From Schaalia sp. lx-260 (lineage in GTDB: Bacteria > Actinomycetota > Actinomycetes > Actinomycetales > Actinomycetaceae), in NCBI RefSeq assembly GCF_021083645.1, contig NZ_JAJNRQ010000003.1, positions 1 to 64,000 on the forward strand: a stretch of DNA of 64,000 nucleotides, in the 5' to 3' direction. How positions within the stretch are numbered: position 1 is the first letter of the stretch; each line of letters begins with the position of its first letter. Shown piece after piece: positions 12,368 through 34,014 of this stretch. The notes under the pieces are model-generated. The model worked only from the letters and a program-made list of their open reading frames with translations. It was not told where the DNA came from and ran no database searches. The position numbers and the translations under genes are program-made.

Positions 12368-15007
12368 CTACATGCCTTGCCGCTTCCTATTCGCGTGAAG
12401 CACAAAACCTGTAGAGAAGATCAAAAGCGCTACAGCAGAAATTAACAGAGGGGCACTACCAGTATGAGCAAGTATGCGTGTATTGGTTTTCTCTGCGTGG
12501 TTCTCTGGTGTAAATACTGATGTTCCTAAGTTGTGCGTGCCCTGCGCAGAAAGCTCAGGATCAGACTGAGCGAGGACTTCAAAAGTGTACTCGGCCTGTT
12601 GTCCGTTCTGTGCTGAAGCGATCACTCGGTGTTTGCCTAATGGGAAATCTTTTGGAACAGCCCAGCGCAATACGGCTGTACCATCAGCACTCACACGAGC
12701 TGTGCCAGCGACATGCGGCTCCGAGTGAACAGTGAAGGTCACTTCCTGTCCTACTGCAAAACCGTGTGCAGTGAAAGTGATATCTGATCCGACCGCGACT
12801 TGAGGCAGTGAGGTCATCACACTGACCGGAGCCAAAGGTGCTGGCTTGGGATCATCCTGAGGCAAAGGTGCTGGCTTGGGATCATCCTGAGGCAAAGGTG
12901 CTGGCGTGGGATCGTCCTGAGGCAAAGGTGCTGGCGTGGGATCATCATGAGGCAAAGGAGCAGGCTCGGGTTCGTCCTGAGGCAAAGGTGCTGGCGTGGG
13001 ATCATCATGAGGCAAAGGCGCTGGCGTGGGATCGTCCTGAGGCAAAGGAGCAGGCTTGGGATCGTCCTGAGGCAAAGGTGCAGGCGTGGGTTCACCATAA
13101 GGAAACTCATCGCACACGTCACCAATTCCGTCACCATCGGAATCAGCCTGGTCTTCATTAGGGTGTGCAGGGCAGTTATCAGCGGCATCATCAATCAGAT
13201 CGCCGTCACGTGTAACAATCAGCGGCGCAGTGGCCGTCGCTGTCTTTCCGTAGCTATCGGTTACACGCAAAGTGATGGTGGTATTGACCGGAGCAGTGAA
13301 AAGCGCGGAGTGAATAGGCTGGGCCGTATTTCCAGCATCTGTTCTGCTGATAACTTCAAATACGCCGTCACCGTCAAGATCCCATTCATAAGAGACAATC
13401 GGACCTTCAGCAGCAAATGATCCAGAAGCGTTAAATTCGATGTTTTCACCGATTCGCGCGGGCGCAATGGATGTAATATTTGCTGTTGGCGCCTCAACGA
13501 TAAGAGGTTTAAGTGTCCGTGCTGTCGTGACGTGTCCACCAGTATTCAAGGCGAGGTTCTTTATCGACTCATCGGTGTTCTCATCTGGGTCGATAACGAG
13601 GAACTCCACAACATCCGCATTAAAAGCGCTGCGGAGAATCGCATCCCAATCTGGCGTTGAATTTTCGTCAACGTTAATTTCTGCATCACCTAGCAGGATG
13701 ACAACTTTTCGCGCATCGGCATTCCAAGGGCTATGAACAGCTGTGTCGAGAGCAGTGTATGTGGACAGGCCGCCACCAGCTTCGCTCGTGCTTGTCACTG
13801 TTTCTAATGTGCTTACTAGTTCGTCAGCGTTGGAGAAAAAGACCCCGTTTTGAGTCACTGTGGCATGAGGGTCATCAGTATTACGGAAAGTGATGAGGCC
13901 GAACCTTGCGTTCTTTCCGCCTTCAGTGGCTTTTCGCGTAACTTCAGTGCTGATACGACGGATTTGTTTTTTCAAGTCATTGAAGGAATCTTTTGTCTCA
14001 GTGGAGTCTTCAAGGACGAAAACAACATCGACATCCTTTGAGAAGGATCGAGTGGTGCGCACCGACTGTGGGATTCCGACCTTTTCTTGGAGGAGTTTAC
14101 CTATTTCCTCGTGACCTGTGATATTGGGATGGTACCAGTGGGAAATTTCAGTGAGGCCTGTTCCTTTGGATGTAGTGTTTCCGTCCGCACCTGTTTTTCC
14201 TTCAGTTTCAAAAAATTCATTGATCCAACGTGTCGGATTCTTCTTATACGGGTCCGGGTCAGGTTCATGCCCTGCGAAAAGCACTTCAACGGGAATATAT
14301 GTCAGACCAACATTGTTGTGTTGTGCAGGATCCCATTCATCTGAGAGGTGTTGCTGCCCTTGGGTTGCTTCTTGACCGAATTGGCGGATTTCTTGAGCTG
14401 CCGGGTAGGAGTCATTTCCAAAGAAGGGTTTCAATGTCCAGGTAGTATTTTCTACACTGAGCAGAGGGTAACCAACGAGGACGATTTGAGCGCCGGTACG
14501 GACTTTGCTTGCAATTTTCCCTAGCAGTTCTTTCATCTGTTCGACCACTATCGGAAACTGTTCTTTCGCGTTTTTTACTGCTTTTCTACAGGAATTGGGA
14601 CCTGAAAAAAGTGGAGCAAAACAGGAGCGCACGATATTTTCAAATTGAATGTCATTGCCACCGATTGTCAGCATGACAATATCGGATTCAGGATCAAGAG
14701 CAGGCAGTTGCGTGTTCAAAACATCTGAAATCACAGCGCCTGAGTGCGCATAATTACGAATCGTCGTGTGAATGCCTTGACGATTCAGCCAGTTTGCGTA
14801 GGTGTGTCCCCAGTTCCGAGTCGACCTAAGCGAAGCCTTGGGTCCGTAGTAGGAGCCTGCGCCGTTACCAGCTGTGTATGAGTCTCCGATGAGGGATAAC
14901 GTAAGGTATTTGCCCGTGTCATCGGCATGTGCTGCCGGCGTCAGCGCTGTCGTGACTAGAAATATGGCAATAATGCCACTCAAAAGCTTCTTGAACATAG
15001 ATTTCAT
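12368..15007 (-). CDS. Wall-anchored SGNH/GDSL hydrolase with VWA, PKD-like and TSP3 segments
   Basis: 879 aa. Signal peptide residues 1-28 (cleavage after AHA). An SGNH hydrolase domain spans about 33-300: block I SLIGDSYTAG (Ser42), block III TIGGNDIQF (about 115), and the catalytic Asp/His region HWYHPNITGH near 290. A von Willebrand A domain (about 322-510) starts VDVVFVLEDSTETK. A PKD-like domain (about 515-605, GSFAAEGPIVSYEWDLDGDG), a thrombospondin type 3 calcium motif (DSDGDGIGD), eight to nine Pro-rich 10-residue repeats, and an Ig-like domain follow. The C-terminus is a LAHTG sorting signal plus membrane helix plus RKRQGM. I infer a surface esterase or lipase acting on host or wall polymers. 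The start is 2 nt after the upstream gene's stop with AAGG just before the ATG, so it is translationally coupled to 15010-15546. Confidence 0.88.
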   Translation of the reverse strand: MKSMFKKLLSGIIAIFLVTTALTPAAHADDTGKYLTLSLIGDSYTAGNGAGSYYGPKASLRSTRNWGHTYANWLNRQGIHTTIRNYAHSGAVISDVLNTQLPALDPESDIVMLTIGGNDIQFENIVRSCFAPLFSGPNSCRKAVKNAKEQFPIVVEQMKELLGKIASKVRTGAQIVLVGYPLLSVENTTWTLKPFFGNDSYPAAQEIRQFGQEATQGQQHLSDEWDPAQHNNVGLTYIPVEVLFAGHEPDPDPYKKNPTRWINEFFETEGKTGADGNTTSKGTGLTEISHWYHPNITGHEEIGKLLQEKVGIPQSVRTTRSFSKDVDVVFVLEDSTETKDSFNDLKKQIRRISTEVTRKATEGGKNARFGLITFRNTDDPHATVTQNGVFFSNADELVSTLETVTSTSEAGGGLSTYTALDTAVHSPWNADARKVVILLGDAEINVDENSTPDWDAILRSAFNADVVEFLVIDPDENTDESIKNLALNTGGHVTTARTLKPLIVEAPTANITSIAPARIGENIEFNASGSFAAEGPIVSYEWDLDGDGVFEVISRTDAGNTAQPIHSALFTAPVNTTITLRVTDSYGKTATATAPLIVTRDGDLIDDAADNCPAHPNEDQADSDGDGIGDVCDEFPYGEPTPAPLPQDDPKPAPLPQDDPTPAPLPHDDPTPAPLPQDEPEPAPLPHDDPTPAPLPQDDPTPAPLPQDDPKPAPLPQDDPKPAPLAPVSVMTSLPQVAVGSDITFTAHGFAVGQEVTFTVHSEPHVAGTARVSADGTAVLRWAVPKDFPLGKHRVIASAQNGQQAEYTFEVLAQSDPELSAQGTHNLGTSVFTPENHAEKTNTRILAHTGSAPLLISAVALLIFSTGFVLHANRKRQGM
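12832..13090 (-). repeat. Tandem 30-bp minisatellite encoding (P-x-P-A-P-L-P-Q-D-D)n
   Basis: Eight complete and one partial 30-bp unit, with small changes (T/K/E at residue 2, Q/H at 8, D/E at 10). Because the unit is a multiple of 3, copy-number change would keep the frame; it also makes several other frames open, which explains overlapping false ORFs here. It encodes the wall-spanning Pro-rich stalk of the SGNH/VWA protein. Confidence 0.95.
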
Positions 15008-19959: not shown

Positions 19960-21018
19960 CTAACAATTGCTTATCCGGCGAGGTAATGCCGCCTCTTGAA
20001 TCGCTGTCAATGGATCAAGGAGCTCTTGCGGGTCGATTATGCCAGCAACAGCCCGAAGCAGTGGCATATCTTCCAAGGTCAACACATCGCTTTGCTCAAC
20101 AAGAGTCAGAGCCAAGCCAACTGCTGGCACGCCTTCCACAGTCTGCTCCAAGCGTTCCATTTCAGCGAGAGCTTCCTGAGGGTTCTCTCCCTTGCCTAAT
20201 CGCACACCGTACACCTTATTACGCCCAGATAAACCCGTAACTTCTAGGTCACCCACACCGGCTAAACCAAAAGCTGTCTCTGCTTTAGCTCCAAGACTGT
20301 GACCAAGTAAAGACATTTCTTTGACGGCTTGAGCAAAAGCTGCTGCTTTGAGGTTATGGTGAGGAATACCCGTAGCTTCTCCAAGACCATCTGCGATACC
20401 TAAAGCAATCGCGTACACGTTCTTCATTGGCGCACACACTTCCACACCCACTTCATCGTCACTGCTTGCAATCGAGTACAGTGGCGTGCTGGTTCTGGCG
20501 GCAAATTCTTCAGCGAGCGCCCCATCACGGCAAGCAAAGATTGTGGCTGTCGGCATTCCCTCGGCACATTCATTTGCTTTCACCGGTCCCGCAATGGCAA
20601 CAATTGGTGGGACTTCGATGCCTTTTTTCGCTGCGATAGAGCGAATAGCATCTGGAAGTAGCTGAATCACTCCCTCGTCATTTGGGCAAAATCCTTTTGA
20701 TGTGAGCCATAGAGCTTTTGCTTTCGCAATATTCGTAAGTGCTAGCTCTGTTACGCGGGGTACACCTACCGAGGCCACGGACATGACGATGACATCGCTG
20801 CCTGCAAGGGCTGTTTCAATTTCATCTGATCGAAAAGTTGTGACAGCGGCGGGTACGATTGCGCCTGTGCGCGGGTGAGGGCGTTGTTCTTCGATTGCGT
20901 CAATGAGGTGATCGTCAAGCCAGGTTCCCCATAAACGCACGTTCCAACCGGAATCAACCAGAGGTTTACACAGTGCTGAGCCCATTGCTCCAGCACCTAA
21001 GATAGTAATAGTTGCCAT
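19960..21018 (-). CDS. GpsA-like NAD(P)-dependent polyol-phosphate dehydrogenase, substrate uncertain
   Basis: 352 aa. Rossmann motif ILGAGAMGSAL at the N-terminus; conserved family blocks TSKGF, GPVKANECAEGMPTA, APMKNVYAIALGIADGLG (with the catalytic-type Lys) and GLAGVGDLEVT...GRNKVYG. Overall this is the glycerol-3-phosphate dehydrogenase fold and length. The segment that reads ANARTALITRG in E. coli GpsA reads HNLKAAAFAQA here, so the Arg that binds the substrate phosphate is Gln230. That argues for a different substrate or phosphate position. It is downstream of an FGGY kinase on the same strand (93 nt gap), so kinase product to dehydrogenase is the natural order. A normal gpsA is expected elsewhere in the genome. 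Annotating it simply as gpsA would be risky. Confidence 0.8.
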   Translation of the reverse strand: MATITILGAGAMGSALCKPLVDSGWNVRLWGTWLDDHLIDAIEEQRPHPRTGAIVPAAVTTFRSDEIETALAGSDVIVMSVASVGVPRVTELALTNIAKAKALWLTSKGFCPNDEGVIQLLPDAIRSIAAKKGIEVPPIVAIAGPVKANECAEGMPTATIFACRDGALAEEFAARTSTPLYSIASSDDEVGVEVCAPMKNVYAIALGIADGLGEATGIPHHNLKAAAFAQAVKEMSLLGHSLGAKAETAFGLAGVGDLEVTGLSGRNKVYGVRLGKGENPQEALAEMERLEQTVEGVPAVGLALTLVEQSDVLTLEDMPLLRAVAGIIDPQELLDPLTAIQEAALPRRISNC

Positions 21019-21111
21019 TGTAATTTTTTCCTTTCATGTTTTTACTCAAGGCTCAGCCTGCATATATTGCGGCTACTTTGAGATGTGCATATATGTGCTG
21101 TTTTTCTGGTT

Positions 21112-22683
21112 TTATGATCTGTTTTCTTCTTGTCGGACAACGCCATCGAGTTCGGTGAAAAGTTCTTGTAGTACGGGGTAAATCTTGGCTTGTATTGCTC
21201 CGATTTTCCGGTAGGCATCATGATTGTCCATGTTGGGTTCAATTGTTTGCCCAAAGGTAGCCATTGCTTTTGCTGAGGCTGCGACATCAGGTAGTCCTCT
21301 ATCAGTGCCAGATGAGTGCGCGTTAATGCCTGCCATTGCGAGTACGGCGGCGCCGAGTGCGGAAACTTCATCGGCTATGCATACGGTGAGTGGGACCCCT
21401 ACCACGTCAGCCATCATTTGTCGCCACAGTGGTGATCGTGTGCCTCCACCCATGATGCGTAGTTCTGTGATTGGAATGCCGGAGGCTGATTCAAGGAAAT
21501 CGAGGTTACGACGCATTTCAAGGCAGATTGATTCCATCACTGAACGATACAGGTGTGCGCGTCCGTGGGTTCCTCGCCAGCCGATAACAGCGCCACGAGC
21601 TTTTGCGTCCCAGTAGGGGGATTGGACGGCGTTCCAGTAGGGCAAAGTGAGTAGGCCTTCTGCGCCTGGGGTAATTTTTGAGGCCATGAGGTCCTCGTAT
21701 GCTACGTCCGTGTTGCCGGGGTTGTCGGGGTCGGCGAAAGTTTTGCGTACCCAGTCAGCTAGGTATGATCCTGATGATTGCAGCACTTCCATCACGTAGT
21801 GGTCGGGAATGCCTGAAACATGGGTGCGGAATGCTGGGTGATAAATGTATTGGTCGGATTCAATACCCGCGTTTACTGCGGTACCCATGTTGAGGTAGCC
21901 CACGCCTGGATCTACAGCGGCTGCTCCGATTCCTGCGGCTTGACCATCACCAAGACCTGCGATTACAGGAATGTCGTGTGAGAGTTTCCATTCTTTTGTC
22001 AGTTCAGTGCGGATTTTGCACATTTTTGTTGCTGGAGGGATCAGTTGAGGCATTTGTTCTTGGCTCACTCCGGCGATTTCAAGGAGTTCGCTGGACCAGG
22101 TGCGTGCTCGGATGTCAAAGAGTCCCAGTGAGTCAGCAGCGGCTGTGGAGGATAGCCAGTGGCCGGTCAGGTTAAAGGAGATGTAGCCGAGGACGTCTAC
22201 CACGCGGTCGGCTTTTTCTAAGATTTCGGGCTTCTTTTCTTTGAGCCAGGCCATTTTGTAGATTGCTGGTGTCACGCCTGCGGGTTTACCAGAGAGTTGG
22301 TGTATGTGACTGTTGCCGTATTCAGCGATCTGGTCGATTGCACGCCCGTCAAGCCAGAGGATTCCGTGAGCCAGTGGGGTTCCGTCTTCTGTAAAGGGAG
22401 CAAAACTTTCACGTTGATGTGTCAGGCCGATTGCGCAGATTCGGTCGCGGTCACGTTGGTCAAGTGATGCGAGGACTTCACTGATGGTTTCGTGGGTTGT
22501 TTCCCACCATAGGCGCGGATCGTGTTCGTAAAAGTCCATAGCTGGAGTTAAAAGTGGGATGGGACGTTTAGCTGTTGCCCATACGTTTCCGTCTGCATCA
22601 ACGATGATTGCTTTCGTTGATTGTGTTGAGGAATCTACTGCGATAACGAGTGGCCCGTCTGTGAGTCGTTTCTGAGTTGTCAT
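21112..22683 (-). CDS. FGGY-family carbohydrate (polyol) kinase, xylulokinase-like
   Basis: 523 aa. ATP-dependent sugar or polyol kinase: N-terminal VIAVDSSTQSTKAIIVD phosphate loop, GLTHQRESFAPF, WLDGRAIDQI, VIAGLGDGQAAGIGAA, YLNMGTAVNAG and the C-terminal MGGGTRSPLWRQMMADV. It resembles xylulokinase more than glycerol kinase, but FGGY substrates cannot be told from motifs. The ATG at 22683 has AAAGG 7 nt upstream. The GpsA-like dehydrogenase follows 93 nt downstream. With the nearby esterase, sugar porter and MHS transporter it suggests a polyol or ketose degradation locus. Confidence 0.88.
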   Translation of the reverse strand: MTTQKRLTDGPLVIAVDSSTQSTKAIIVDADGNVWATAKRPIPLLTPAMDFYEHDPRLWWETTHETISEVLASLDQRDRDRICAIGLTHQRESFAPFTEDGTPLAHGILWLDGRAIDQIAEYGNSHIHQLSGKPAGVTPAIYKMAWLKEKKPEILEKADRVVDVLGYISFNLTGHWLSSTAAADSLGLFDIRARTWSSELLEIAGVSQEQMPQLIPPATKMCKIRTELTKEWKLSHDIPVIAGLGDGQAAGIGAAAVDPGVGYLNMGTAVNAGIESDQYIYHPAFRTHVSGIPDHYVMEVLQSSGSYLADWVRKTFADPDNPGNTDVAYEDLMASKITPGAEGLLTLPYWNAVQSPYWDAKARGAVIGWRGTHGRAHLYRSVMESICLEMRRNLDFLESASGIPITELRIMGGGTRSPLWRQMMADVVGVPLTVCIADEVSALGAAVLAMAGINAHSSGTDRGLPDVAASAKAMATFGQTIEPNMDNHDAYRKIGAIQAKIYPVLQELFTELDGVVRQEENRS

Positions 22684-23165
22684 TTTGTTACCTTTCGTGA
22701 TCTTCTTTGACCAGTGCGGGAACGCACACAGAAATAGTAACGTAGATTCTGTTAATTATCACAGGTTTTATGAGAATAAAAGGATGGTGGGGCGCTCGCC
22801 ACACAAGAGTATTTCTTCAACTTGCCTAAGAAATAAAAAGAGATATGCAAGTAATACAGCGAAAACTGAGGGGGTGCGGGGTGAGCATATCCGCCTCATA
22901 TTTCCGCAGGTACAGAAAATTGCTGCCGTTTTTCAAACAGGTAGGAATGATATTACCGCCGGGTAAATTTTGGCCTATCGCCAAGTATTTGAGGAAATAA
23001 CTGAAAGTTTCAGCCCATAAACCATCGTAATAAACAAAAATTCACAAATATTATGTGAAAGATCAAAAAGCGTACAATAATTAGATTTCAAGTTTTCGCA
23101 TTCTGATCTGAAATGTCACATCGCCAGAAAATGTAAATATTGAAGAAGTGAGAAGCAATATATTA
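22684..23165. other. Divergent intergenic region between the kinase and the MHS transporter
   Basis: No sound gene. Two short perfect inverted repeats are visible: CTGAAA-g-TTTCAG at 23001-23013 and TTCACA-7 nt-TGTGAA at 23041-23059. Either could be an operator for the divergent kinase or transporter transcripts. Sequence is A+T-rich around them, as expected of a promoter region. Confidence 0.4.
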
Positions 23166-23438
23166 ATGAAGCATCACATTCGACTGGATGCTAAATTACT
23201 TTTCGTGGAAAGTAATATGCTGCTCCTCTTGACCTCACTTGTCATGGCACGATTCCTTATATGGATTGTTGCCAATAATTCACTATCGGAGAACGCAAAG
23301 GTTATCACAGCATATTTTTTCCGTGTGCAAAGCTTGTCGCTCCATACACTAGAGCAGTTCTTCGCCGTACTTGGCACGGGCGAGCGCGAAAAACTCGACT
23401 CTTTGCCCCGCCCCTCACTAGTGGAGAACGTATCATGA
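23166..23438 (+). CDS. Small uncharacterised ORF overlapping the MHS transporter start
   Basis: 90 aa from ATG 23166 (an upstream GTG at 23148 is also in frame). It contains one hydrophobic stretch (MLLLLTSLVMARFLIWIVA) and an amphipathic tail ending in LEQFFAVLGTGEREKLDSL. The stop overlaps the next ATG as ATGA, the arrangement of translationally coupled genes. No family is recognised; the tail vaguely recalls the last helix of MarR-type regulators, so it might be a decayed gene. No good ribosome-binding site is seen for it. It may be a chance frame. Confidence 0.25.
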   Translation: MKHHIRLDAKLLFVESNMLLLLTSLVMARFLIWIVANNSLSENAKVITAYFFRVQSLSLHTLEQFFAVLGTGEREKLDSLPRPSLVENVS

Positions 23439-24724
23439 GGACCGAATACAGTAAACGCAGCCTTTCCATGTTTATTGCTGCCAGCGGCACCATCATTGAG
23501 TGGTTTGATTATTCGCTCTTTTTCTATCTTGCAATGTCTTTGAGTCATACTTTCTATCCAGAAATGGATTCTTCCCTGCTCATTGTGTTAGGGACCGGTT
23601 CAGTGGGTTTCCTTTTTCGTCCGTTGGGCGCGGTTGTTTTTGGGCATATCGGGGACGCGAAAGGCCGTACTGTCTCGTTAGTGATTTCAGCGGGGTTAAT
23701 GTCGCTTTCTATGCTTGGCATTGCTTTGATGCCTGGATATGACACTATAGGAATTTGGGGTGGTGTAGCGGTCCTTCTTTTGCGTGCTCTCGCAGGTTTT
23801 TCGGTGGGGGCAGAGTACACCGGAATCATGGTGTACCTGATGGAAAGCGCTCGTCCTCATCGGCGTGCTTTAACCGCTAGCTGGGCAGCTGCTAATTCAG
23901 AAATTGGTGCTTTGCTAGCAGTTGGCTCATCTGCGATTACAACTTCCATCGTAGGTTCTGCTGCTCTTAATACGTGGGCATGGCGTATTCCTTTCATATG
24001 TGGAGCGATACTTGCTGCCATCATGCTGCCCTTACGTAAATTCATGGTGGAAAGTCCTGCCATGCACAAAAAAGCAACTGAAATGCGCAGTGAAATTGTC
24101 GGTAAGAAAGAAGGTCCACTCACCTATGTTCTGCGACATCAGCGACGCTCAATGCTGGTAACTTTTCTTATTTCTACCGTCGGTTCAGCGACCTATTTCC
24201 TTACCATTACCTACTTGCCGACCTATATTGAAACCGTTGATTCTGGTGACAGTCAGATGGCACTCAATTACGGGATTATCGCGGCAGTGTCAGCAATCCT
24301 TGTCACACCATTTTTTGGCCTTTTGTCGGATCTTATTGGCAGGCGACGCTCATTTACAGTACTGCTCGTAGCGGTTATTACACTGGCCATCCCCGGATAT
24401 AGCCTGCTGACCTCACCGAATATTCTTGTTCTTGCAGGAGCGGTGGCTGTACTGGCAATTCCCGCTGCCGGGTGGAGTGCTGCTGCTGCGAGCGCTATTC
24501 CTGAGCAGTTTCCCACGCAAGGTCGTTATTCTGGAATGGCCATTGGCTACAATCTTGCCACTGTAATTTTCGGTGGATTGACTCCGCCTTTGGTCACGTG
24601 GCTTATCCAGAGTACCGGGCATGTGCTTGCTCCTGCTTTTTATGCGAGTGCCGTCGCAATTATCGCTGGTATTCCTGCCATCATCCTCATGGGTGATACG
24701 GTCAAGGATCAGAAACGGAAGTGA
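23435..24724 (+). CDS. MHS-family MFS transporter (metabolite:H+ symporter)
   Basis: 429 aa. Family signs: opening IAASGTIIEWFDYSLFFYLA, RPLGAVVFGHIGDAKGRTVSL, LLLRALAGFSVGAEYTGIMVYLMESARPHRRA and FGLLSDLIGRRRSF. MHS proteins (KgtP, ShiA, ProP relatives) import organic acids or osmolytes with protons. The start at 23435 has GGAG 8 nt upstream. The last codons and stop lie in a 24-bp sequence repeated 3.5 kb downstream at the end of the bacteriocin ATPase gene. Substrate unknown; a link with the divergent kinase/dehydrogenase is possible. Confidence 0.88.
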   Translation: MRTEYSKRSLSMFIAASGTIIEWFDYSLFFYLAMSLSHTFYPEMDSSLLIVLGTGSVGFLFRPLGAVVFGHIGDAKGRTVSLVISAGLMSLSMLGIALMPGYDTIGIWGGVAVLLLRALAGFSVGAEYTGIMVYLMESARPHRRALTASWAAANSEIGALLAVGSSAITTSIVGSAALNTWAWRIPFICGAILAAIMLPLRKFMVESPAMHKKATEMRSEIVGKKEGPLTYVLRHQRRSMLVTFLISTVGSATYFLTITYLPTYIETVDSGDSQMALNYGIIAAVSAILVTPFFGLLSDLIGRRRSFTVLLVAVITLAIPGYSLLTSPNILVLAGAVAVLAIPAAGWSAAAASAIPEQFPTQGRYSGMAIGYNLATVIFGGLTPPLVTWLIQSTGHVLAPAFYASAVAIIAGIPAIILMGDTVKDQKRK

Positions 24725-24737
24725 CGATGAGCGCGAG
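24714..24737 (+). repeat. Left copy of 24-bp direct repeat flanking the bacteriocin cassette
   Basis: Begins AACGGAAGTGA and ends GATGAGCGCGAG; matches 28181-28204 at 23 of 24 positions (mismatch at the 12th base, C here, A in the right copy). It covers the last codons and stop of the MHS transporter gene. Sequence on either side of the two copies is unrelated. Confidence 0.9.
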
Positions 24738-24875
24738 CAGCACTTATCAGCGTAAAAGCACAATTTCAGTGACATAGGCGTCCGTCGTATTATCACCAAT
24801 CAATAGGAAAATTTTTAAGGAATATAAGACAAAATTTGAAAAAGCGCTTGCGGACGATTTCTGCGCATTGTAAAT

Positions 24876-24924
24876 TGAGTCTTGGGATACCCATTGCTCC
24901 AACAAAGATGTACCCCAAGACTCA
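24876..24924 (+). promoter_or_regulatory. Leader hairpin upstream of the bacteriocin gene
   Basis: TGAGTCTTGGG (24876-24886) pairs perfectly with CCCAAGACTCA (24914-24924), and TAC/GTA extend the stem inward after one mismatch. It ends 40 nt before the prebacteriocin ATG. No T run follows, so it is more likely a leader structure, protein site or mRNA stabiliser than a terminator. Confidence 0.55.
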
Positions 24925-24964
24925 TAAGATTCGCCACCGCTTTACCCAACGAAGGGAAAGGCCC

Positions 24965-25258
24965 ATGTTTCATAAAGTAAAGAAAACAAGTGCAGCAGTA
25001 TTACTGTCACTCATCGTTCTCACCGGCAGCATAGGCATAGCCCACGCTGAAGTAGTGTACTACAAAGGACTAGCCGTAAACTGGGACCACGGTCGCACAC
25101 TGCTTATTTACAGCTACTCTGACGTAAATACAAAATATTTTGAACACGCTACCACCGCTAATAGCACAACATCCGGATGGAAAAAACCTGGAGTTCGCGC
25201 ATATGCCAAGCAGTACATAGGCGCATCACCTGCAAGCGCATACTGGGATTGCCGCTAA
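24965..25258 (+). CDS. Lactococcin 972-family bacteriocin precursor
   Basis: 97 aa from ATG 24965, which follows AGGGAAAGG. The upstream in-frame extension is rejected because the signal peptide starts here: residues 1-28 (KVKK, hydrophobic core, AHA) with cleavage before Glu29. The mature peptide would be about 69 residues, close to the 66 of lactococcin 972. It starts EVVYYKGLAVNWDHG, is rich in Tyr, Ser, Thr and Gly, and ends SAYWDCR. Lactococcin 972 is Sec-secreted and blocks septum formation by binding lipid II; the same target here is inference. The two following genes are the membrane protein and ATPase that accompany this bacteriocin family. No lantibiotic or disulfide motif; a single Cys lies near the end. 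Confidence 0.88.
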   Translation: MFHKVKKTSAAVLLSLIVLTGSIGIAHAEVVYYKGLAVNWDHGRTLLIYSYSDVNTKYFEHATTANSTTSGWKKPGVRAYAKQYIGASPASAYWDCR

Positions 25259-25316
25259 TCCTTACCCATGCTCGTACACATTCATTGAAGTAAACGAAAA
25301 GCGGTGGTGAATTCTT

Positions 25317-27515
25317 ATGGGCAAAATTCTGCGCTTATTCACTTTTATTTTAACCCTTTTATCTAGCGCTCTCTTTGGTTTAATTTCCATTACAACTACC
25401 GGTGACAGTTTTTTACATACGCTCGATCAATACGGACACAATGGGACTGTCATATACCTACACCAAGTTCCCGAAGATAAGGCACAGTCAGCAATATCAA
25501 CCATATTGCAAGAAGTAGATGCGCATCACGGCTTCATTATCCGCGGTGACATGCTACTCACTAATGACGGTGATTCCGCTGGATACCGTTTCGGCTTTTA
25601 CGGTGACATACACACAAATGCGCAAGCACTGGAATTGGAATATTTAGGCACCAGAATTTTTTATAAGGAAAATATCGGCTTGTTACTCAAAGCAGATAAA
25701 GGTGCCACTTTAGGCCTTGACCAATCACAAGCCGATCAAATTTCTCCACTACCTTCAATATTTGCTGGACCAAAAGTCATCGGCATCAAACTCACTGATC
25801 TACTGGACAGCTCAGGAACAGTCAACGGCACCTATCGGATTATCGGAATTACTCCCCAAGACTTTCGCTCCCTGACTACAGATCTTGCTGCTCTACTGGA
25901 CACTGACACGCACGCAATAACCACCCCACTCAGTGGTAAATACGTCTACGACAGCTTACTTACCAGCATTGCATTGGGAGCAGTCGTTATCACCTGGTTC
26001 ACCCTCGTATTTGTCTGTATCCTCGTGACATATCAAAATATATCCTTACTTGGAGTCCACGTTTTACTGGGCTGGTCACGAACACGCTATGTTCTCAAAG
26101 TATTCTTCCCATTACTCACGGTTTCCCTGTGTGGAATATTTCTTTCCTGCGGGATTCACCTTTATGGTTTAGAAGGATTCACCTACACTACCGCCCTCAT
26201 CACTGAGGCTTTACTTTCCGGTACCCCAGCAGTTGGATTAACAATAACCGCGGTAGCGCTTGCTTCCCTCGTCATTTTTCAGGTAAGTCCCGTGGGCGCG
26301 ATACGAAACCGTGTTTCGTCAAAAATTATGGCTACCTGCCTGCTTATTTTCTACGTACTTTCTTCAGGCGCTGTCGTTTACGCAATGTTTTATCTTGATG
26401 GCCCTTTATATGAAGTAACCCATATACGTGAAGTTCAACAACGCTGGGCGGAACATTCTGATCTCGCAATCTTGTACAAAGAACAAATTGGCAATAATAC
26501 TGCCTCCTTTACGGGGCAGGAAGCTGAACATTCGGTTGAATACTATAACTGGTACCGTTCCTTTGAAGGAGAAAAAGGCGCGTACATCGTTCACACAAAC
26601 TACTACAGTGACGACTTACTTGAAAGATGGCGCGAAGATCAGATCTACCCTCACGTTCCCAATTCCTCTTTCTGGGAACTTGTCGCCTCCCCTAATTACC
26701 TCACAGACCACGGCATTACAGTTGACCCACAACTTGTGCAGCAAGCCATGCAGGGAAAGCGACTATACCTCCTGCCGGATACCCTCAGCCCTGCTGATAG
26801 CTCAGCCGTAGAAGGCTACTTGACGGATTTCTCGCTACAAAAACGCGAAAGTCCCATTCGCAATGATTTCACAAAGAATCAGCAACTGATCTTCCAGCGC
26901 TACCATGTTTCAGATGAAATTTTCATCTGGAATACAGATACGAGCCTGCCAAATACTGTGAAAAATCCCGTTATTTTAGTGGCGACAACGGATAACATGA
27001 CTCCTTTTGAATCAGAAAGCCTCTGGGCGGAAGGACTCGACAACAGTTATATAAAACTCGATAGCACAGCCACACAGAAATACCTTGACCCCCACTACTT
27101 GGCGAAATACGGATTAGATGACAATCATCCTCAATTCCTGCTGGTTTCTGACTTTATTGCCGGATTACAGAAAACTCTGACCGAAACTATCCGCCTTTTC
27201 GGAATAGTCATAGCACTTGTCGCATTACTTGAATTGGTGATTATCTCATCATTAGTCAAGATTTTTGCCTTTTCTAAACGAGAACACATCGCAGTTAAAC
27301 GCCTCATGGGATATCCATTGACGCATATTTTCCTACCACCAATTCTCCTCGTTATTTCTACCAGCATTTTATGTACACTGACCGCTTTCATTCTGCGGAG
27401 CACAAGCGGAGTAACAACTGTCCTTATTTTTGGCGCCCTCCAAATGCTTCTACTTTTCTATCAAGCAAAGAAAGCCAGCCTCGAAGGAATCGTTTCCCTT
27501 ATCAAATCAGCATAA
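25317..27515 (+). CDS. Bacteriocin-associated integral membrane protein (DUF1430 type)
   Basis: 732 aa. One membrane segment at the N-terminus (about 5-28), a large outer domain to about 215, a cluster of membrane helices (about 220-370), a second outer domain (about 375-610) and a C-terminal cluster of three helices with KREHIAVKRLMGYPL, a FtsX/MacB-like permease feature. This is the layout of the large membrane protein of lactococcin-972 gene clusters, thought to act with the ATPase in export or self-immunity. It lies 58 nt after the bacteriocin gene with GGTGG before the ATG, so the three genes form one operon. No truncation is seen. Confidence 0.85.
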   Translation: MGKILRLFTFILTLLSSALFGLISITTTGDSFLHTLDQYGHNGTVIYLHQVPEDKAQSAISTILQEVDAHHGFIIRGDMLLTNDGDSAGYRFGFYGDIHTNAQALELEYLGTRIFYKENIGLLLKADKGATLGLDQSQADQISPLPSIFAGPKVIGIKLTDLLDSSGTVNGTYRIIGITPQDFRSLTTDLAALLDTDTHAITTPLSGKYVYDSLLTSIALGAVVITWFTLVFVCILVTYQNISLLGVHVLLGWSRTRYVLKVFFPLLTVSLCGIFLSCGIHLYGLEGFTYTTALITEALLSGTPAVGLTITAVALASLVIFQVSPVGAIRNRVSSKIMATCLLIFYVLSSGAVVYAMFYLDGPLYEVTHIREVQQRWAEHSDLAILYKEQIGNNTASFTGQEAEHSVEYYNWYRSFEGEKGAYIVHTNYYSDDLLERWREDQIYPHVPNSSFWELVASPNYLTDHGITVDPQLVQQAMQGKRLYLLPDTLSPADSSAVEGYLTDFSLQKRESPIRNDFTKNQQLIFQRYHVSDEIFIWNTDTSLPNTVKNPVILVATTDNMTPFESESLWAEGLDNSYIKLDSTATQKYLDPHYLAKYGLDDNHPQFLLVSDFIAGLQKTLTETIRLFGIVIALVALLELVIISSLVKIFAFSKREHIAVKRLMGYPLTHIFLPPILLVISTSILCTLTAFILRSTSGVTTVLIFGALQMLLLFYQAKKASLEGIVSLIKSA

Positions 27516-27541
27516 ATACCTCAGCAGAAAGAATAATCATC

Positions 27542-28207
27542 ATGTCAGACATTCTTAACGTGCAGAACCTGACCAAAATCTTTGGTCAGCGTATCGTCAT
27601 TGACAATCTCAGCTTTCATGTTCCTGCAGAGGCCAGCCTAGCAATCACCGGACCCTCTGGATGCGGGAAAAGCACATTGCTCAATATCATCGGTATGCTT
27701 GAAGCCCCCACTCATGGCAGCATTATGCTCGAAGATAAACCTTTACCCGCTATTAACTCCACTGCAGCAACGAAACTCAGGCGCAAACAGATTAACTACC
27801 TTTTTCAGTCTTACGCGCTTATCAGTGACCTTACTGCTCATGATAACGCTATGCTGGGCCTCCACTATGCCCCTATAAGCAAAGAGGAAAAAACTGCACG
27901 TATCAACGAAATCCTCGCAAAGCTCGGGCTTTACCATGTGAAAGATGAGCGAGTATCCACTCTTTCTGGAGGGGAACAGCAACGCCTAGCTTTAGCTCGC
28001 TGCATTCTCAAACCTGGCAACCTCATACTTGCAGATGAACCAACCGGCGCTCTTGATCGGAAACTCTCAGGTCGAGTCCTAGAGCAAATGCTTGAATTGC
28101 AACACGAGCACCACAAAACCCTCATCATTGTTACTCACGACCCACATGTGGCTAAAGAATGTAACTATGTTATGCAGCTCAACGGAAGTGAAGATGAGCG
28201 CGAGTAA
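27542..28207 (+). CDS. ABC transporter ATP-binding protein of the lactococcin-972 cassette
   Basis: 221 aa from ATG 27542. Walker A GPSGCGKST (about 38-46), Q loop YLFQSYALI, signature LSGGEQQRLALARC, Walker B LILADEPTGALD and switch HDPHV are all intact. It is a MacB/LolD-sized ATPase and should pair with the DUF1430 membrane protein. The gene starts 26 nt after the permease stop; the ribosome-binding site is weak (AGAAAGAA). An in-frame extension upstream overlaps the permease and is not believed. Its 3' end holds the right copy of the 24-bp direct repeat. Confidence 0.92.
   Translation: MSDILNVQNLTKIFGQRIVIDNLSFHVPAEASLAITGPSGCGKSTLLNIIGMLEAPTHGSIMLEDKPLPAINSTAATKLRRKQINYLFQSYALISDLTAHDNAMLGLHYAPISKEEKTARINEILAKLGLYHVKDERVSTLSGGEQQRLALARCILKPGNLILADEPTGALDRKLSGRVLEQMLELQHEHHKTLIIVTHDPHVAKECNYVMQLNGSEDERE
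28181..28204 (+). repeat. Right copy of 24-bp direct repeat flanking the bacteriocin cassette
   Basis: Matches 24714-24737 at 23 of 24 bases. Here it is coding and gives the last residues (NGSEDERE) of the ATPase, in another frame than the left copy. Recombination between the two copies would remove 3,467 bp carrying all three bacteriocin genes. Confidence 0.9.
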
Positions 28208-28319
28208 GAAATTCACAGCCCTGCATCTGAATACCTGTCCTCGCATATAACGACGAGACATTTCCAACATCTTTCGAACTTACGAAGCAATCCGTAAAAC
28301 TGTTATCGTAACGCTGGCG

Positions 28320-28415
28320 TCAGCACTACGATAAAAATTTGTCGAGTGTTCCGTTCCGGAAGGCTAAGGTGCCTCCTTACCTGATACGGAGTGGACTGGG
28401 CGCCATTTGATTTTT
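28320..28415 (+). promoter_or_regulatory. Structured leader upstream of the DHA2 exporter
   Basis: TCCGT near 28352 and ACGGA near 28385 can pair and enclose an AAGG...CCTT arm. The segment lies 15-100 nt before the exporter start. It has the look of a folded 5' leader, but I cannot match it to a known riboswitch. Confidence 0.3.
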
Positions 28416-28428
28416 AAGAGAGGCTCTT

Positions 28429-29904
28429 TTGTCCACTTTGACAAAAATTGTGCAGGAACCACAGGAACCATCTGCCACACCTATCCACAAACAGCATGAA
28501 CTTCCCCATTTTGCTCGCCCTCACTTGACAATGTCAGGACTTTACCTTGGCGCTTTTCTTGGGATGCTTTCTGAAACAGCAATGAGTATTGCCTTGCCCG
28601 CTTTGATGGACGATTTTAGGATCAGCGCGGGGGTTGCTCAATGGATGATTGTCGGCTACATGCTCGCTATCGGCATCGTCTTACCTTTTGTTGGGCTGCT
28701 TCTGCGATCTTTTAATGCCAAAGTTGTTGCTCAATGCGCTTTAGCTATTTCTCTTATTGGGGCGATTCTGTCAACCTGTGCTCCCACATTTGCACTGGTA
28801 TTAGCTGGACGCATGCTCCAAGGCGTTGGAACTGGCATTATTTTGCCCACTTTGTTCTCTGCGATTATTCACATTTTCCCTCCTCACCGAATTGGGGCCG
28901 CGAACGGAGTTGCAGGCCTAACAATCATGCTTGCACCTGTCATAGGCCCTACCTTGGGAGGAATCCTCGTTGGTGTATTTTCATGGCGTTCACTTTTTGC
29001 TGTTTTCGCATTTGTTGCTGCGCTCGCTTTAGCGTTGATAACGCTACGATTTGTTAATCCCCTGCAGCAAATGAAACAAAGTGTTGATGCAGTATCCGTT
29101 GCTGAATCGATCATCGGTTTCGGAGCGCTTATTTGTGGTGTTTCTTTGATAAGTGAGCAAGGACTATCGCCCCTTGTTATCCTGCTCATTATCTTAGGTA
29201 TCACCAGTATTGCTTTATATTCACAGCGACAATTACGTATCAATCATCCGATCATGGATATTTCATTGCTTATGCGCAGTGATTTCAGGACACCTGCCCT
29301 CATTGTTACTTTGTCTTTTGCCTGCACTCTTGTGTGCATGTACATTGTCCCCTTGGAGTTACAAAGAGGACTTGCTTTAGATTCCTCATATGTGGGTGTC
29401 ATGATGTTACCTGCCGGTGTCGTTAACGCGCTGTGTTCATTTGCTGCGGGTCGTCTTTACGACACGTTAGGATCTACCCCCCTTATTCGTTTCGGTGGCG
29501 TGATGACACTTATCGGTATCGTCATGTTCATGATGATTGGAACAGGAACATCAATGTTCTTTTTCGTCATGTCACACATCGTCATCATGGTGGGGATCCC
29601 ATTCATTCAGCAGCCTGCACAGTCAGCAGCATTAGCGAGTTTGCCTCGACAAAGCGCATCCGATGGCTCAACCATTCTTAATACATTGCAGCAGGTGATC
29701 GGCGCAGTTGGAACAGCTTTAGCAACATGCCTTCTTGGTTTTGGAGTGTTTTCTGTCAGCGATCCAGCACAGGGCTTCATCACTGGCTCACGTTATGGCT
29801 ATCTTTTCGCGGCCGTTTTAGTAGGTAGCGCGCTTCTCATTTCATTGCTTCATCGTCGGGTGGCCGCACGTTCTGCTGTGACGAGTAAGGATGAAGCGCA
29901 CTGA
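28429..29904 (+). CDS. DHA2-family MFS multidrug exporter
   Basis: 491 aa. It starts at a TTG (28429) with GAGAGG 5 nt upstream. A hydrophilic N-tail of about 35 residues precedes helix 1. Drug:H+ antiporter signs: ETAMSIALPALMDDF in helix 1, QWMIVGYMLAIGIVLP, LAGRMLQGVGTGIILP and GPTLGGILVGVFSWRSLF (motif C, typical of exporters). About 14 helices are expected. Substrate unknown. It lies downstream of the bacteriocin cassette but 221 bp away with its own leader, so it need not be part of it. A bidirectional terminator follows. Confidence 0.9.
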   Translation: MSTLTKIVQEPQEPSATPIHKQHELPHFARPHLTMSGLYLGAFLGMLSETAMSIALPALMDDFRISAGVAQWMIVGYMLAIGIVLPFVGLLLRSFNAKVVAQCALAISLIGAILSTCAPTFALVLAGRMLQGVGTGIILPTLFSAIIHIFPPHRIGAANGVAGLTIMLAPVIGPTLGGILVGVFSWRSLFAVFAFVAALALALITLRFVNPLQQMKQSVDAVSVAESIIGFGALICGVSLISEQGLSPLVILLIILGITSIALYSQRQLRINHPIMDISLLMRSDFRTPALIVTLSFACTLVCMYIVPLELQRGLALDSSYVGVMMLPAGVVNALCSFAAGRLYDTLGSTPLIRFGGVMTLIGIVMFMMIGTGTSMFFFVMSHIVIMVGIPFIQQPAQSAALASLPRQSASDGSTILNTLQQVIGAVGTALATCLLGFGVFSVSDPAQGFITGSRYGYLFAAVLVGSALLISLLHRRVAARSAVTSKDEAH

Positions 29905-30000
29905 TATATCAGAGCATCAGGATGTGAGCTAGCACCATGCGTCCCGCTTGTGTCGCGCGTCTCCTTTAAGGAGGCACCCCCCTGTTTGCGCTGATAAAAA

Positions 30001-30050
30001 CCAGTGGAGGCTAGGTCTTTGACCTATTCCCAGCCTCCACTGGTCTTTTT
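30001..30050. terminator. Bidirectional terminator between exporter and sialidase genes
   Basis: 12-bp perfect stem (CCAGTGGAGGCT at 30001-30012, complement at 30032-30043). TCTTTTT follows on the + strand and TTTTTATC on the minus strand, serving the convergent genes on both sides. Confidence 0.9.
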
Positions 30051-30090
30051 CATATGGGCTTTGGCCTATACGCCTAAGCGACACGCCAGA

Positions 30091-33000
30091 TTATGCGTTT
30101 TCCTTTCTCTTGATTACCACACCAATTCCGGCACATCCCAGTGCAGCAAGGAAAAGTATTCCCAAAGAGGCGCCTGTGCGCGCAAGATTACGTTTTCCTT
30201 TTATCCGAGTCTGTGTTGTAATGCTTTGCGAATCATTCTGTTTCGTCGTATTGCTGTCCGTTTGTTCTACTTCTTCTGATTTATGAGGCGGGAGCGGAAC
30301 AACTGTTGTATCGCCAGTTGGAGTCGTTGTTTCTTCCGCCCCTGAGGTGCTGCCCGCAGAATCGCTTGCTCCATCTGAACTCGACTCACCAGCCACAGGA
30401 CCGGTCGGACCTTCCGAAGCAGACTCATTACCCGCTGCTGGGCCACTCGGTCCATCTGAACTCGAATCGCCAACCGCAGGAGCGCTCGTGCCCTCTGAAG
30501 TTGTCTCCTCAGTTGATGGATCAGGTGTTTCTTCTACTGGTGGTGTTTCAATTGTCAGCGTCAGATTTGCTGCTCGTTCCGATGTTGCTCCTGTCGCAGT
30601 AAATTCGTAATCACCTGGGTGCGCATCCGAGTTTACCCGTAAACGGAATTCAGCGACCCCCTCAGAATTTGCAAGTGCGGTAAAACCGTTCCGACCCTCA
30701 AAAGCATCCGTCGGAGTACCCACTGAGCGGAAAAGCGGTATAACCACTGATGCTAAGGACACCGGTGCCTCATGAGTAAGGTTCACAGCTTCTCGCGGCT
30801 CAAATCCGCTGGTTTTCAACGTCAATTCTGCACCTGGCTTGACGCTCAGATTAGCTCCCTCTGCTCGTCTCAAAGTTGTCTGAGGTACAACACGAAGGTC
30901 AAAACTCGCATTCTTTGACGAAACAGCCCCTGTAGCTGTCACGGTATGCGTTCCTGTTTGCGCGCCCTCAGCAATATCAACAGTGAAACGAATTTCCCCG
31001 TTCTCATCAGCAACAACCGTGTCATTTTCTGTCACGATTGCCTCATCATGTCTGAGGGTTACTTCCTCATTTGGCGCGAAATGAGAGCCTGTCAATGCTA
31101 CTGCTTTTTCGGCGACGCTCACAGGTTTTTCCGGGCCAGTCAGAGCAGCCTGCTGGAGTACGCTCATCCTAAAGGATGTTGTTGCACGCGCAGGTGTATT
31201 TGTGCCGTCCTTATCGGTGACGCTCACCTGCACTTCAGCGTTTTCCACTAGGTGAGTCGGAGTACCAGAAATCGCCATCGTTTCTTGGTCAAAAGACAAT
31301 CCCTCAGGAAGTCCACTCACTTCAACAACACGATTGGCTTTTTCGTCGCCTCCTGCAACTTCCAATGGGATAGCGTCAATAGGCGTACCTTCGATCATGG
31401 TCTTATCCGCAATGGAGGCGAGGGTAAGTGTCGGGAGGTCACATATTCCTTCTCGTACCCAGTTCAACGTCACGTTAGTGTAACCAATACCATTCCCATC
31501 CATTTCGTACAAAATACCAATACGACCATCAGGTTGGATTGCAATTGACGTGTAGCCCGTGTAACCAGAACGGTATTCACGACGGTTTTCATCAAGCCAG
31601 GTACTCCCATTATCACAGCTCACTGACAATGAACCATTCGTGCGAGCACGCGCGTTGAATGTGTTAGAGAAAAGAAGAACTTTCGATTTCGCTGTCCCTT
31701 CAGTTGCCGTGGGGAAAGCACGAATAATCGTCGCGTTATTTACTGGGTCAGTCAGTTGTGTTTCCAGTGTTGCTGGTGTCCACGTCAGGCCACCGTCATG
31801 TGAGGTGGCGATCAGACGGTTTCCGCCTGGTGAACGCGAATTAATCATGAGGCTACCGTCACTCAGTTCAACCATCTTTGTTTCATCAAAGTTACGGTTT
31901 ACTCCTTGAGCCACACGCGCTAAGTTTCCGAGCTGCCAGGTCTGACCGTGGTCATCAGAGTACAGGGCAGCCGCGTGAATAGTGCTACCAGCCGCTGGTG
32001 TCAGTTGGAAAGCATAAGGTTGAACCAAGCGGCCTTTGTATTGGCCGTGTTGGATTTGCAGGCCGTTACCTGATGTTGCGAAACCTGATTTGAGGGTTCC
32101 CACATGGTCACGGATAGCCATATTTGTGAGGTCGCGGCTAGTCCATGTGTGCCCGTTATCGGTTGATTCTGCAACATGGAGGTGCATTGCTGTACGGTCG
32201 TTTTCTGCAATAACACCTTGGGTGAGACGATAGTTTCCTTGCCAGAAACCGTTGTCATATGAGAGCACGTGGAAGCTAAAGATTTTCCCTGTTTCGTAGT
32301 CAACAACGTAAGAAGGGTCAGAGTATCCTTTTTTCTGCGCCCCACTTTGTCCTTGTGAGATAACGGTTTGTACTCCCCAGGTTTTTCCGCCGTCAGTGGA
32401 ACGACGTTGAACAATTGAGTTCGGGTTAGGTGAGTCAGCAGCGGACCCTGGCCGACGATCATAGGCGGCAAGGAGGTCACCGTTTGGCGCTTTTGTCAGT
32501 GATGGAATCCGGTAGTACATGCCCGCTGGAGTATTTCCGACGGAAAGAACTTGATCTTCGCCTCGTTCAGCAGGAAGGGAAGGATCAGCATTTGCATAGC
32601 TACCAGCTGTTGCTTCATCCCAGGTTCCAGGAACCGAAACGGGGGTAGAGGCAATTTTTGCTTGTTGGAAGAGTTCCCCATCAACACGTACTTCCATCAT
32701 GAGTGATGGAACAAATGTACCGCTTTCAAGGTCAACGGTTGTCAGTGCGTGCGTCACTGTGCAGGTTTTGTTTTCATTGTCGGCGAGTTGCCCACGACAA
32801 GTCGCGAGTTCTTCTTCGGTGAAGGTGCTGTCGTCTGGCTTGAATGTCACCGAACGGGGGTTGGATGTTTCTGTTGCTTCGTAGCGGATATCAAATGAGA
32901 GCGTGTCCCCTACCGCGTATTTACTTTGAGCTTCCCCCCCCCGTTGCTTTTGTGTCATTTCAACGAAATTCACGACTATAGGTTTCACGGGCGCTGAGGA

Positions 33001-33795
33001 GCCTTCTGTCAGATTCGTAGGAGTTGTCGTTCCGTTGTAATTTTCAGAACGGTACAGTGCGTATCTCACGTATGGAGCGAAACCACCATGTGTTAAATCG
33101 TCTTCGGTGACGATGTGGTAGGCGTGCCCAATACATTGGATCCATGTTGCTGATGTTCTCATTGAACGACATGTGTCAATGTTCGTGAGGTTTGATTCTG
33201 CGGGCCGCATTCCGCGGGTTATTCCTGTGAACTGACGGAATGCCACAGTGTAGTTGATTCTGTCCCCTACGTTCCAGACTTCTTTGGGTTGAGTGGGAAC
33301 AATTGTTGCTTCGCTGTAGGAATCCACATCAATAACTGTTGTGTTTCCTTGGGCTGTTGGTAGGGCAACTGATTCAGATGATTCAGTTGATTCTTTCATC
33401 GTGTACGTGATTGTGGGGGTAAATCCTCCATTTGTCACGTCATCTGCGGTGAGTATGTGAGTCATTCGGTTTGAGCACACACCGGTGTCATGCGCGTTGA
33501 TGGCGAGTTGGCAGGCCGCAAAGTTTTCCAGATTCGAGGCTGTAGGAACGAATACTTTCTGCATTTCTGAGTTATTTGTGACGTGCACATCAAAACTCAT
33601 TGAGTCGCCTACCATCCATACATGTCCTTGCGGTTGCGGATTCGCCAGTTCGAGGGTGATGGTTGCGGGACTCGGTTGTTCTTGCGCTAGAGCAGGGGGA
33701 ATTACCGATACTGTCATCGCCAGTAGGGACCCGAGTATCACGACAGTCTTTCGACGTCGCATTGTGAACCAACACCCTGATTTTTCCTTTTTCAT
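30091..33795 (-). CDS. nanH: Wall-anchored multidomain exo-alpha-sialidase
   Basis: 1234 aa from ATG 33795 with GAAGGAAG upstream. Signal peptide about 1-37 (cleavage after ALA). Three similar N-terminal domains of about 100-120 residues follow (each with VGDxxxFD/NYxV...T and a C...C pair). The catalytic sialidase spans about 405-790: YRIPSLTKAPNGDLL with the Arg-triad RIP motif, and Asp boxes STDGGKTW, STDNGHTW, SDDHGQTW, SHDGGLTW and SCDNGSTW. Then a putative-Ig (He_PIG) domain with GLPEGLSFD, further Ig-like domains, a Ser/Gly/Pro/Glu-rich stalk, and LARTG (about 1205) plus helix plus KRKENA. It releases terminal sialic acid from host glycans at the cell surface. A 9-G tract in the reading frame (residues about 285-287) could switch the gene off by slippage; in this copy the frame is intact. 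Confidence 0.93.
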   Translation of the reverse strand: MKKEKSGCWFTMRRRKTVVILGSLLAMTVSVIPPALAQEQPSPATITLELANPQPQGHVWMVGDSMSFDVHVTNNSEMQKVFVPTASNLENFAACQLAINAHDTGVCSNRMTHILTADDVTNGGFTPTITYTMKESTESSESVALPTAQGNTTVIDVDSYSEATIVPTQPKEVWNVGDRINYTVAFRQFTGITRGMRPAESNLTNIDTCRSMRTSATWIQCIGHAYHIVTEDDLTHGGFAPYVRYALYRSENYNGTTTPTNLTEGSSAPVKPIVVNFVEMTQKQRGGEAQSKYAVGDTLSFDIRYEATETSNPRSVTFKPDDSTFTEEELATCRGQLADNENKTCTVTHALTTVDLESGTFVPSLMMEVRVDGELFQQAKIASTPVSVPGTWDEATAGSYANADPSLPAERGEDQVLSVGNTPAGMYYRIPSLTKAPNGDLLAAYDRRPGSAADSPNPNSIVQRRSTDGGKTWGVQTVISQGQSGAQKKGYSDPSYVVDYETGKIFSFHVLSYDNGFWQGNYRLTQGVIAENDRTAMHLHVAESTDNGHTWTSRDLTNMAIRDHVGTLKSGFATSGNGLQIQHGQYKGRLVQPYAFQLTPAAGSTIHAAALYSDDHGQTWQLGNLARVAQGVNRNFDETKMVELSDGSLMINSRSPGGNRLIATSHDGGLTWTPATLETQLTDPVNNATIIRAFPTATEGTAKSKVLLFSNTFNARARTNGSLSVSCDNGSTWLDENRREYRSGYTGYTSIAIQPDGRIGILYEMDGNGIGYTNVTLNWVREGICDLPTLTLASIADKTMIEGTPIDAIPLEVAGGDEKANRVVEVSGLPEGLSFDQETMAISGTPTHLVENAEVQVSVTDKDGTNTPARATTSFRMSVLQQAALTGPEKPVSVAEKAVALTGSHFAPNEEVTLRHDEAIVTENDTVVADENGEIRFTVDIAEGAQTGTHTVTATGAVSSKNASFDLRVVPQTTLRRAEGANLSVKPGAELTLKTSGFEPREAVNLTHEAPVSLASVVIPLFRSVGTPTDAFEGRNGFTALANSEGVAEFRLRVNSDAHPGDYEFTATGATSERAANLTLTIETPPVEETPDPSTEETTSEGTSAPAVGDSSSDGPSGPAAGNESASEGPTGPVAGESSSDGASDSAGSTSGAEETTTPTGDTTVVPLPPHKSEEVEQTDSNTTKQNDSQSITTQTRIKGKRNLARTGASLGILFLAALGCAGIGVVIKRKENA
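32934..32942 (-). repeat. 9-bp poly-G tract inside the sialidase reading frame
   Basis: Nine C on the + strand, read as G in the gene (codons for Arg-Gly-Gly-Glu in KQRGGEAQ). A one-base slip would shift the frame before the catalytic domain. It is the longest G run inside a gene that I saw in this window. Confidence 0.9.
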
Positions 33796-34014
33796 GAGTG
33801 CTTCCTTCTGTTTTTACTTAGCTTCAAACGGAGAGTTCGGTCAACGGTGACCTTGTTTTCTTTTACATCGTTGCATATGAAAACAAGAAGCTTACTCATG
33901 CTATCAACTTTATGGTCTGATGTCTGACAAACGGATTCTTAATAATTTTTCCTTGTATTCTTTTCCCTCTGCGTGTACGTGACAACTTTTCTTTCGCGGA
34001 ATCGCCCCGGCGGA

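Follow-up and report, generated by a model that had tools for sequence, protein, structure and literature searches.

In the 64,000-nucleotide window analyzed here (positions 1 to 64,000, forward strand, of contig NZ_JAJNRQ010000003.1 from Schaalia sp. lx-260, RefSeq assembly GCF_021083645.1), a three-gene, lactococcin-972-like bacteriocin cassette lies behind an MHS-family transporter gene and is framed by a 24-bp direct repeat. Our leading explanation is that the cassette was inserted long ago behind the MHS gene and that 24 bp were duplicated in the process, a tentative reading to which we give a probability of roughly 45%; the repeat is probably the scar of the cassette's arrival. The features on which the argument depends are the following.

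23435..24724, + strand: MHS-family metabolite/H+ symporter gene, 429 codons (TIGR00883, E 2.9e-94, below the curated cut-off)
24714..24737, + strand: left repeat copy (24 bp), made up of the final 11 bases of the MHS gene, TGA stop included, and 13 intergenic bases after them
24965..25258, + strand: bacteriocin-like secreted peptide gene, 97 residues, 49-64% identical to the peptides of five related cassettes and 39-41% identical to two more
25317..27515, + strand: bacteriocin-associated integral membrane protein (permease) gene, 732 residues, TIGR01654-like, below cut-off
27542..28207, + strand: ABC transporter ATPase gene, 221 residues, best match TIGR03608 (L_ocin_972_ABC), below cut-off, conserved to codon 213
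28181..28204, + strand: right copy of the 24-bp direct repeat, 23/24 identical to the left copy, encoding the entire non-conserved C-terminal tail of the ATPase, NGSEDERE

The first-pass annotation had reported that 24714-24737 recurs at 28181-28204 with 23 of 24 bases the same, and this was confirmed, with a start-to-start distance of 3,467 bp. The single mismatch falls in the middle of the 24-mer, leaving a longest perfect run of 12 bases, and the match does not continue into the flanking 30 bases of either copy. Both copies had been described as coding in different frames. The right copy is indeed coding throughout, as ATPase codons 214-221 with TAA directly after, but the left copy is coding over its first 11 bases alone. 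At up to three mismatches, the 1.93-Mb genome holds exactly two sites of the 24-mer, namely the two copies, which excludes a frequent genome-wide motif; the 24-mer read backwards, used as a control, has no genome site at this threshold. At the same threshold, 8 of 213 family genomes carry any site, our own included, and the eight sites in the seven others each have three mismatches, while no site was found in the 34 other genomes of the genus. We also considered the repeat as a shared start signal and rejected it; GGAAG and ATGAGCGCGAG occur in both copies, yet reading from that ATG reaches the frame's end after 16 and 18 codons.

The repeat was compared with random expectation in third-order Markov simulations of the window, from which the tandem-repeat gene at 12368-15007 had been excised and in which pairs 30-5000 bp apart were scored. 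The observed score of 20 was attained in 1 of 1000 simulations, and in none of 40 second-order simulations (best score 18). Across 304 kb of the same contig (C6), 44 direct-repeat pairs within 5 kb score at least 20, and 37 of these start in four clusters (12.8-13.1, 138.9-141.5, 184-185.3, and 235.3-237.3 kb) that we take to be internally repetitive genes, those beyond the window without the help of annotation. Two of the 44 pairs are more than 1 kb apart, the cassette pair at 24714/28181 and a second at 139564/141346. From the simulations and this repeat background, a chance pair is unlikely, yet it is not negligible across a scan of many windows such as a genome provides. Coincidence would nevertheless have to put the copies at gene ends on both sides of a scattered cassette and start the right copy at the exact border of conservation in the ATPase, and we consider it improbable.

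That border was located by aligning the ATPase with 24 homologs, among which are several near-duplicates (e.g., L077/L078, L079/L084, L081/L082, and L133/L134); L055, which is the same locus as L076, L080, which ends before the stop, and L086-L088, which gave no ATPase hit, were excluded. Leucine 213 is leucine in 20 of the 24 homologs and ungapped in all of them, and each of residues 214-221 is common to at most two. The conserved part of the ATPase ends at codon 213 (base 28180), the right copy begins at the next base, the first of codon 214, and its last base directly precedes the stop codon. Because the conservation border and the stop codon delimit the copy on its two sides, the right copy is exactly the non-conserved tail of the ATPase. 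This is as would be expected if target DNA had supplied the end of the gene.

The exact boundary of the tail is compatible with a later patch too. The cassette may already have been in place when template switching or repair inserted a 24-bp copy of the MHS gene end behind codon 213 of the ATPase gene, ahead of the stop; the repeat would then be uninformative about how the cassette arrived. Copying of this kind would explain why the right copy is an exact in-frame block from the last conserved codon to the stop, and neither GC segmentation nor a search for terminal inverted repeats, both described below, marked the cassette borders. The closest homolog, L053, has an ATPase that ends MQLG-stop and continues with the same TAAGAAA found behind the right copy in the window. 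This match is not above chance, however; L053 also has GTAAGAAA at its stop, and 471 of 500 shuffles were as good. The patch moreover requires the coincidence of a donor just outside the other end of the cassette, and we regard it as unlikely.

The first-pass annotation had offered a further origin for the left copy, as the leftover end of an earlier ATPase gene after duplication and deletion of the cassette. Read in the ATPase frame, the left copy does encode NGSDDERE, and the frame stays open for five more codons (QHLSA) before a stop. The 30 bases ahead of the copy are unlike the end of the ATPase gene, however, and the MHS gene is not apparently shortened, at 429 codons compared with 430-446 in 11 homologs, counted from where the match starts to the stop. 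The genome also contains a single cassette permease, and its next ATPase by E-value is 37% identical. Such a relic is distinctly unlikely.

Under the insertion reading, the three-gene cassette with its own upstream region would have entered as one piece just behind the MHS gene. Entry would have left a 24-bp target duplication, or a circle and the chromosome would have joined at a shared 24-bp stretch; the right target copy would then supply the last eight codons of the ATPase, with the stop codon next. Illegitimate recombination or a site-specific event acting in trans could have carried this out. The first-pass proposal that the cassette was inserted here gains from the rarity of the repeat, its framing of the genes, the position of the right copy off the conserved ATPase, and the scattered occurrence of the cassette; it gains nothing from recombinases, terminal inverted repeats, a dyad, or composition. 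A foreign composition of the cassette was rejected, as the GC content at third codon positions of all three genes is host-like (0.435-0.473, within the 0.346-0.519 range of 22 compared genes); the overall GC content of the permease gene, 0.444, is the second lowest of the 22. Both the one mismatch between the copies and the host-like composition point to an insertion that was not recent.

Several observations weigh against this reading. No empty site was seen, in a set of genomes of which none could show one. No recombinase (transposase or integrase) is encoded among the three cassette genes, the best terminal inverted repeat at the cassette ends scores 6, a value reached by 51% of shuffles, and the 24-mer contains no dyad with an arm longer than 3 bp. 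Two-change-point GC segmentation of 20000-34000 placed borders at 22680 and 23320, not at the repeats. On the right, the ATPase homologs end 0-23 residues after codon 213, and with variable tails as the rule, a tail of eight residues needs no special cause; the likeness of L053 at its stop could mean that the DNA behind the right copy belongs natively to the cassette. On the left, the cassette border is set by the repeat alone. Of 16 homologs whose upstream regions we compared with 24700-24760, 15 were at chance level. The exception, L056, shows, about 230 bp ahead of its bacteriocin gene, a weak likeness to 24707-24756, a segment that takes in the left copy. This likeness was equaled by 1 of 300 control segments, about what the best of 16 loci may reach, and with all 16 loci summed 107 of 300 controls were as good as the left-border region, which is chance level. 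An earlier test of five loci against shuffled sequence had pointed to L056 (1/200) and less so to L054 (13/200), both over part of the left copy. If real, the L056 likeness would make the left copy native to the cassette; we do not rely on it, but no other result opposes a purely target-derived left copy as much. The L056 segment falls in no recognized gene.

Many attachment sites of mobile elements sit at the 3' end of a gene that stays intact. The left copy has the same placement, at the 3' end of an MHS gene left intact, as it would if the repeat were the attachment site of an active mobile element carrying the cassette. Against this, no integrase was found in the three genes or in the neighboring proteins tested, which cover part of the open reading frames of the window, and the 24-mer lacks dyad arms for a tyrosine recombinase. 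Nor does it have, at up to three mismatches, a further site in the genome or any in the 34 other genomes of the genus. An active element of this type is very improbable.

Recombination between the copies had been predicted to remove all three bacteriocin genes within 3,467 bp. Excision would indeed remove the bacteriocin and permease genes, but the ATPase gene would lose codons 1-213 only, and the MHS gene would remain intact at 429 codons. Loss of the cassette by this route is possible and should be rare, given a longest perfect run of 12 bp and the failure of the H47 island, with runs of 11-20 bp, to yield a recombined clone (PMC5426353); from a 24-bp repeat with a mismatch in its middle we would predict rare deletion at most. 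The description of the cassette as an 'exchangeable module' is unproven. One elaboration of it is a mobile module without a recombinase that enters at gene ends and takes the tail and stop codon of its ATPase from the target, so that the region it interrupts and its own last gene are mended together, with excision sparing the MHS gene; this is a long shot.

We looked for flanking repeats at 22 homologous loci, of which L080 was dropped for its short flanks, leaving 21; L055 and L076 are one locus, and L040, L086-L088, and L132-L134 stood outside this test. No flanking direct repeat above ten shuffles was found at 19 of the 21. The remaining two, L079 and L084, are both from Plantibacter, and in each a repeat of the type TTCGACAAGCTCAG / CCTGAGCCTGTCGAAGGG brackets the related cassette. 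In L084 the right repeat begins two bases before the ATPase stop codon, and in L079 it lies about 50 bases behind that stop. The Plantibacter cassettes thus resemble ours in being bracketed by direct repeats. Unlike the 24-mer, with just its two genome sites, the Plantibacter repeat recurs in related form near 9 kb within these 12-kb loci, to which the search was confined, and we therefore take it for a dispersed intergenic repeat. With 19 loci lacking a repeat and the other two having multicopy ones, direct repeats are no general feature of related cassettes.

The cassette is scattered among genomes. Counting our own genome each time, the cassette or its permease is present in 1 of 35 genomes of the genus (one per species), in 7 of 213 of the family, and, for the permease at E 1e-20, in 5 of 396 sampled genomes of the order. 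A scan of named genomes gave 19 loci, including Canibacter (51%), Bifidobacterium, Microbacterium, Plantibacter, Rothia, and clostridial bins. Three plasmid records contain permeases of 26-28% identity, and no DNA match to 23000-29950 was found in plasmids. In viral contigs, 21 bases of the repeat had no exact match, and neither the permease nor the MHS protein had a relative.

The gene on the right flank of the cassette is the following.

28429..29904, + strand: DHA2-type MFS transporter gene

The 34 other genomes of the genus contain no relative of the MHS gene above 35% identity, and the best in the order sample (64%) is from a different genus of the same family. The MFS gene has one relative in the genus at 68% identity, with no other queried window gene in the 19 kb around it. 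No counterpart of the MHS, MFS, sialidase, or kinase gene of the window lies beside related cassettes in the loci searched. All four fetched relatives (18.5-19 kb each) retain a core block that runs from murA to the gene at 40270 and includes tRNA-His; two of the four have tRNA-Pro. Between 7.2 and 37.3 kb, only two of the queried window genes gave hits in these relatives. The glycerol-3-phosphate dehydrogenase gene at 19960 matched at 29-33% identity in three of the four, and we take the relatives' gene to be a different, core gpsA; the ATPase, a common protein type, matched in L117 at 37% identity. As the queried genes from 7.2 to 37.3 kb are nearly unmatched in the four relatives, the MHS gene, the cassette, and the MFS gene seem to lie in an accessory stretch. 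Within 19960-22683, outside the core block, the glycerol-3-phosphate dehydrogenase-like gene adjoins an FGGY-type kinase gene; the gene that three of four relatives have in the core block is only about 30% identical to it.

Further features were observed in and around the cassette, including a hairpin in the leader of the bacteriocin gene.

24876..24924, + strand: leader hairpin with 15-nt arms, one mismatch, and a 19-nt loop

The hairpin starts 89 nt before the bacteriocin gene and is perhaps a regulatory leader. L053 and L054, whose peptides are the most similar, carry hairpins at nearly the same place but with different sequences; that of L054 has 13-nt arms and a loop of 19, 87 nt before the gene, and that of L053 has 10-nt arms and a loop of 20 and lies 75 nt ahead of the first codon that aligns. 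For the remaining 15 of the 17 homologs scanned, the best hairpin is elsewhere or short, and the comparison has no computed chance level. An inverted repeat of 21 nt (28368-28388 / 29958-29978, 81% complementary) flanks the MFS gene and is possibly an operator or an element border. The best-fitting GC segment, 22680-23320 (38% GC), lies upstream of the MHS gene, and a tandem array with 30-bp spacing occupies 12833-13090 within the GDSL-lipase-like gene at 12368-15007. No Rfam family matched 23000-30200 at the gathering score, and six terminator-like sites were observed compared with 3.7 (standard deviation 2.4) in shuffles.

If the insertion reading is true, the locus preserves the precise limits of a bacteriocin and transporter module that was transferred, and it would offer a simple polymerase chain reaction (PCR) test for gain or loss of a competition trait. 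If it is false, the site is one more variable segment with a short flanking repeat.

The locus can be compared with several published systems. The lactococcin 972 cluster of plasmid pBL1 consists of the bacteriocin gene with orf2 and orf3, a possible ABC transporter involved in immunity (PMC4055356), and the window likewise has a permease and an ATPase gene after the peptide gene. The order peptide, membrane protein, ATPase is the same in the window, L053-L057, L039, and L040. In contrast to the plasmid-borne cluster, our cassette is on a 367-kb contig. Its peptide gave no reported match to TIGR01653 at a limit of E 10, related peptides being weak and below cut-off (L053, E 0.0037; L054, 0.0065; L055, 0.053), and the permease (TIGR01654, E 5.3e-18, 64.9 bits) and ATPase (TIGR03608, E 4.6e-67, 225.5 bits) are below the curated cut-offs of 189.35 and 254.85. 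Because the gene set is similar, the peptide lacks a model match, and the other two proteins are below cut-off, 'lactococcin-972-like' is the safe name. Among the titles listed in literature searches on bacteriocins, none concerned direct repeats around a lactococcin 972 cluster, which is no proof of absence.

Among insertion sequences, some members of the IS1202 group make target duplications longer than 15 bp (PMC10132070). The long target duplication would be alike in our locus, but the cassette has no transposase gene or terminal inverted repeats. The H47 genomic island of E. coli spans 12,635 bp between repeats of 144 and 148 bp; PCR detected recombination between them, and databases contain empty sites (PMC5426353). 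H47 is far larger, with longer repeats and excision shown by PCR, whereas our cassette is known from sequence alone. A further class is that of variable segments flanked by direct repeats, which make up 10-18% of the variable segments in four data sets, with 66-94% of such repeats shorter than 30 bp (PMC2884548). Our locus, with 3.5 kb of genes between 24-bp repeats, is consistent with this class, although variability there is seen by strain comparison and the locus here is read from one strain. By analogy with the segments in that report, an insertion flanked by short repeats behind the MHS gene would be ordinary anatomy, of a kind common in bacteria.
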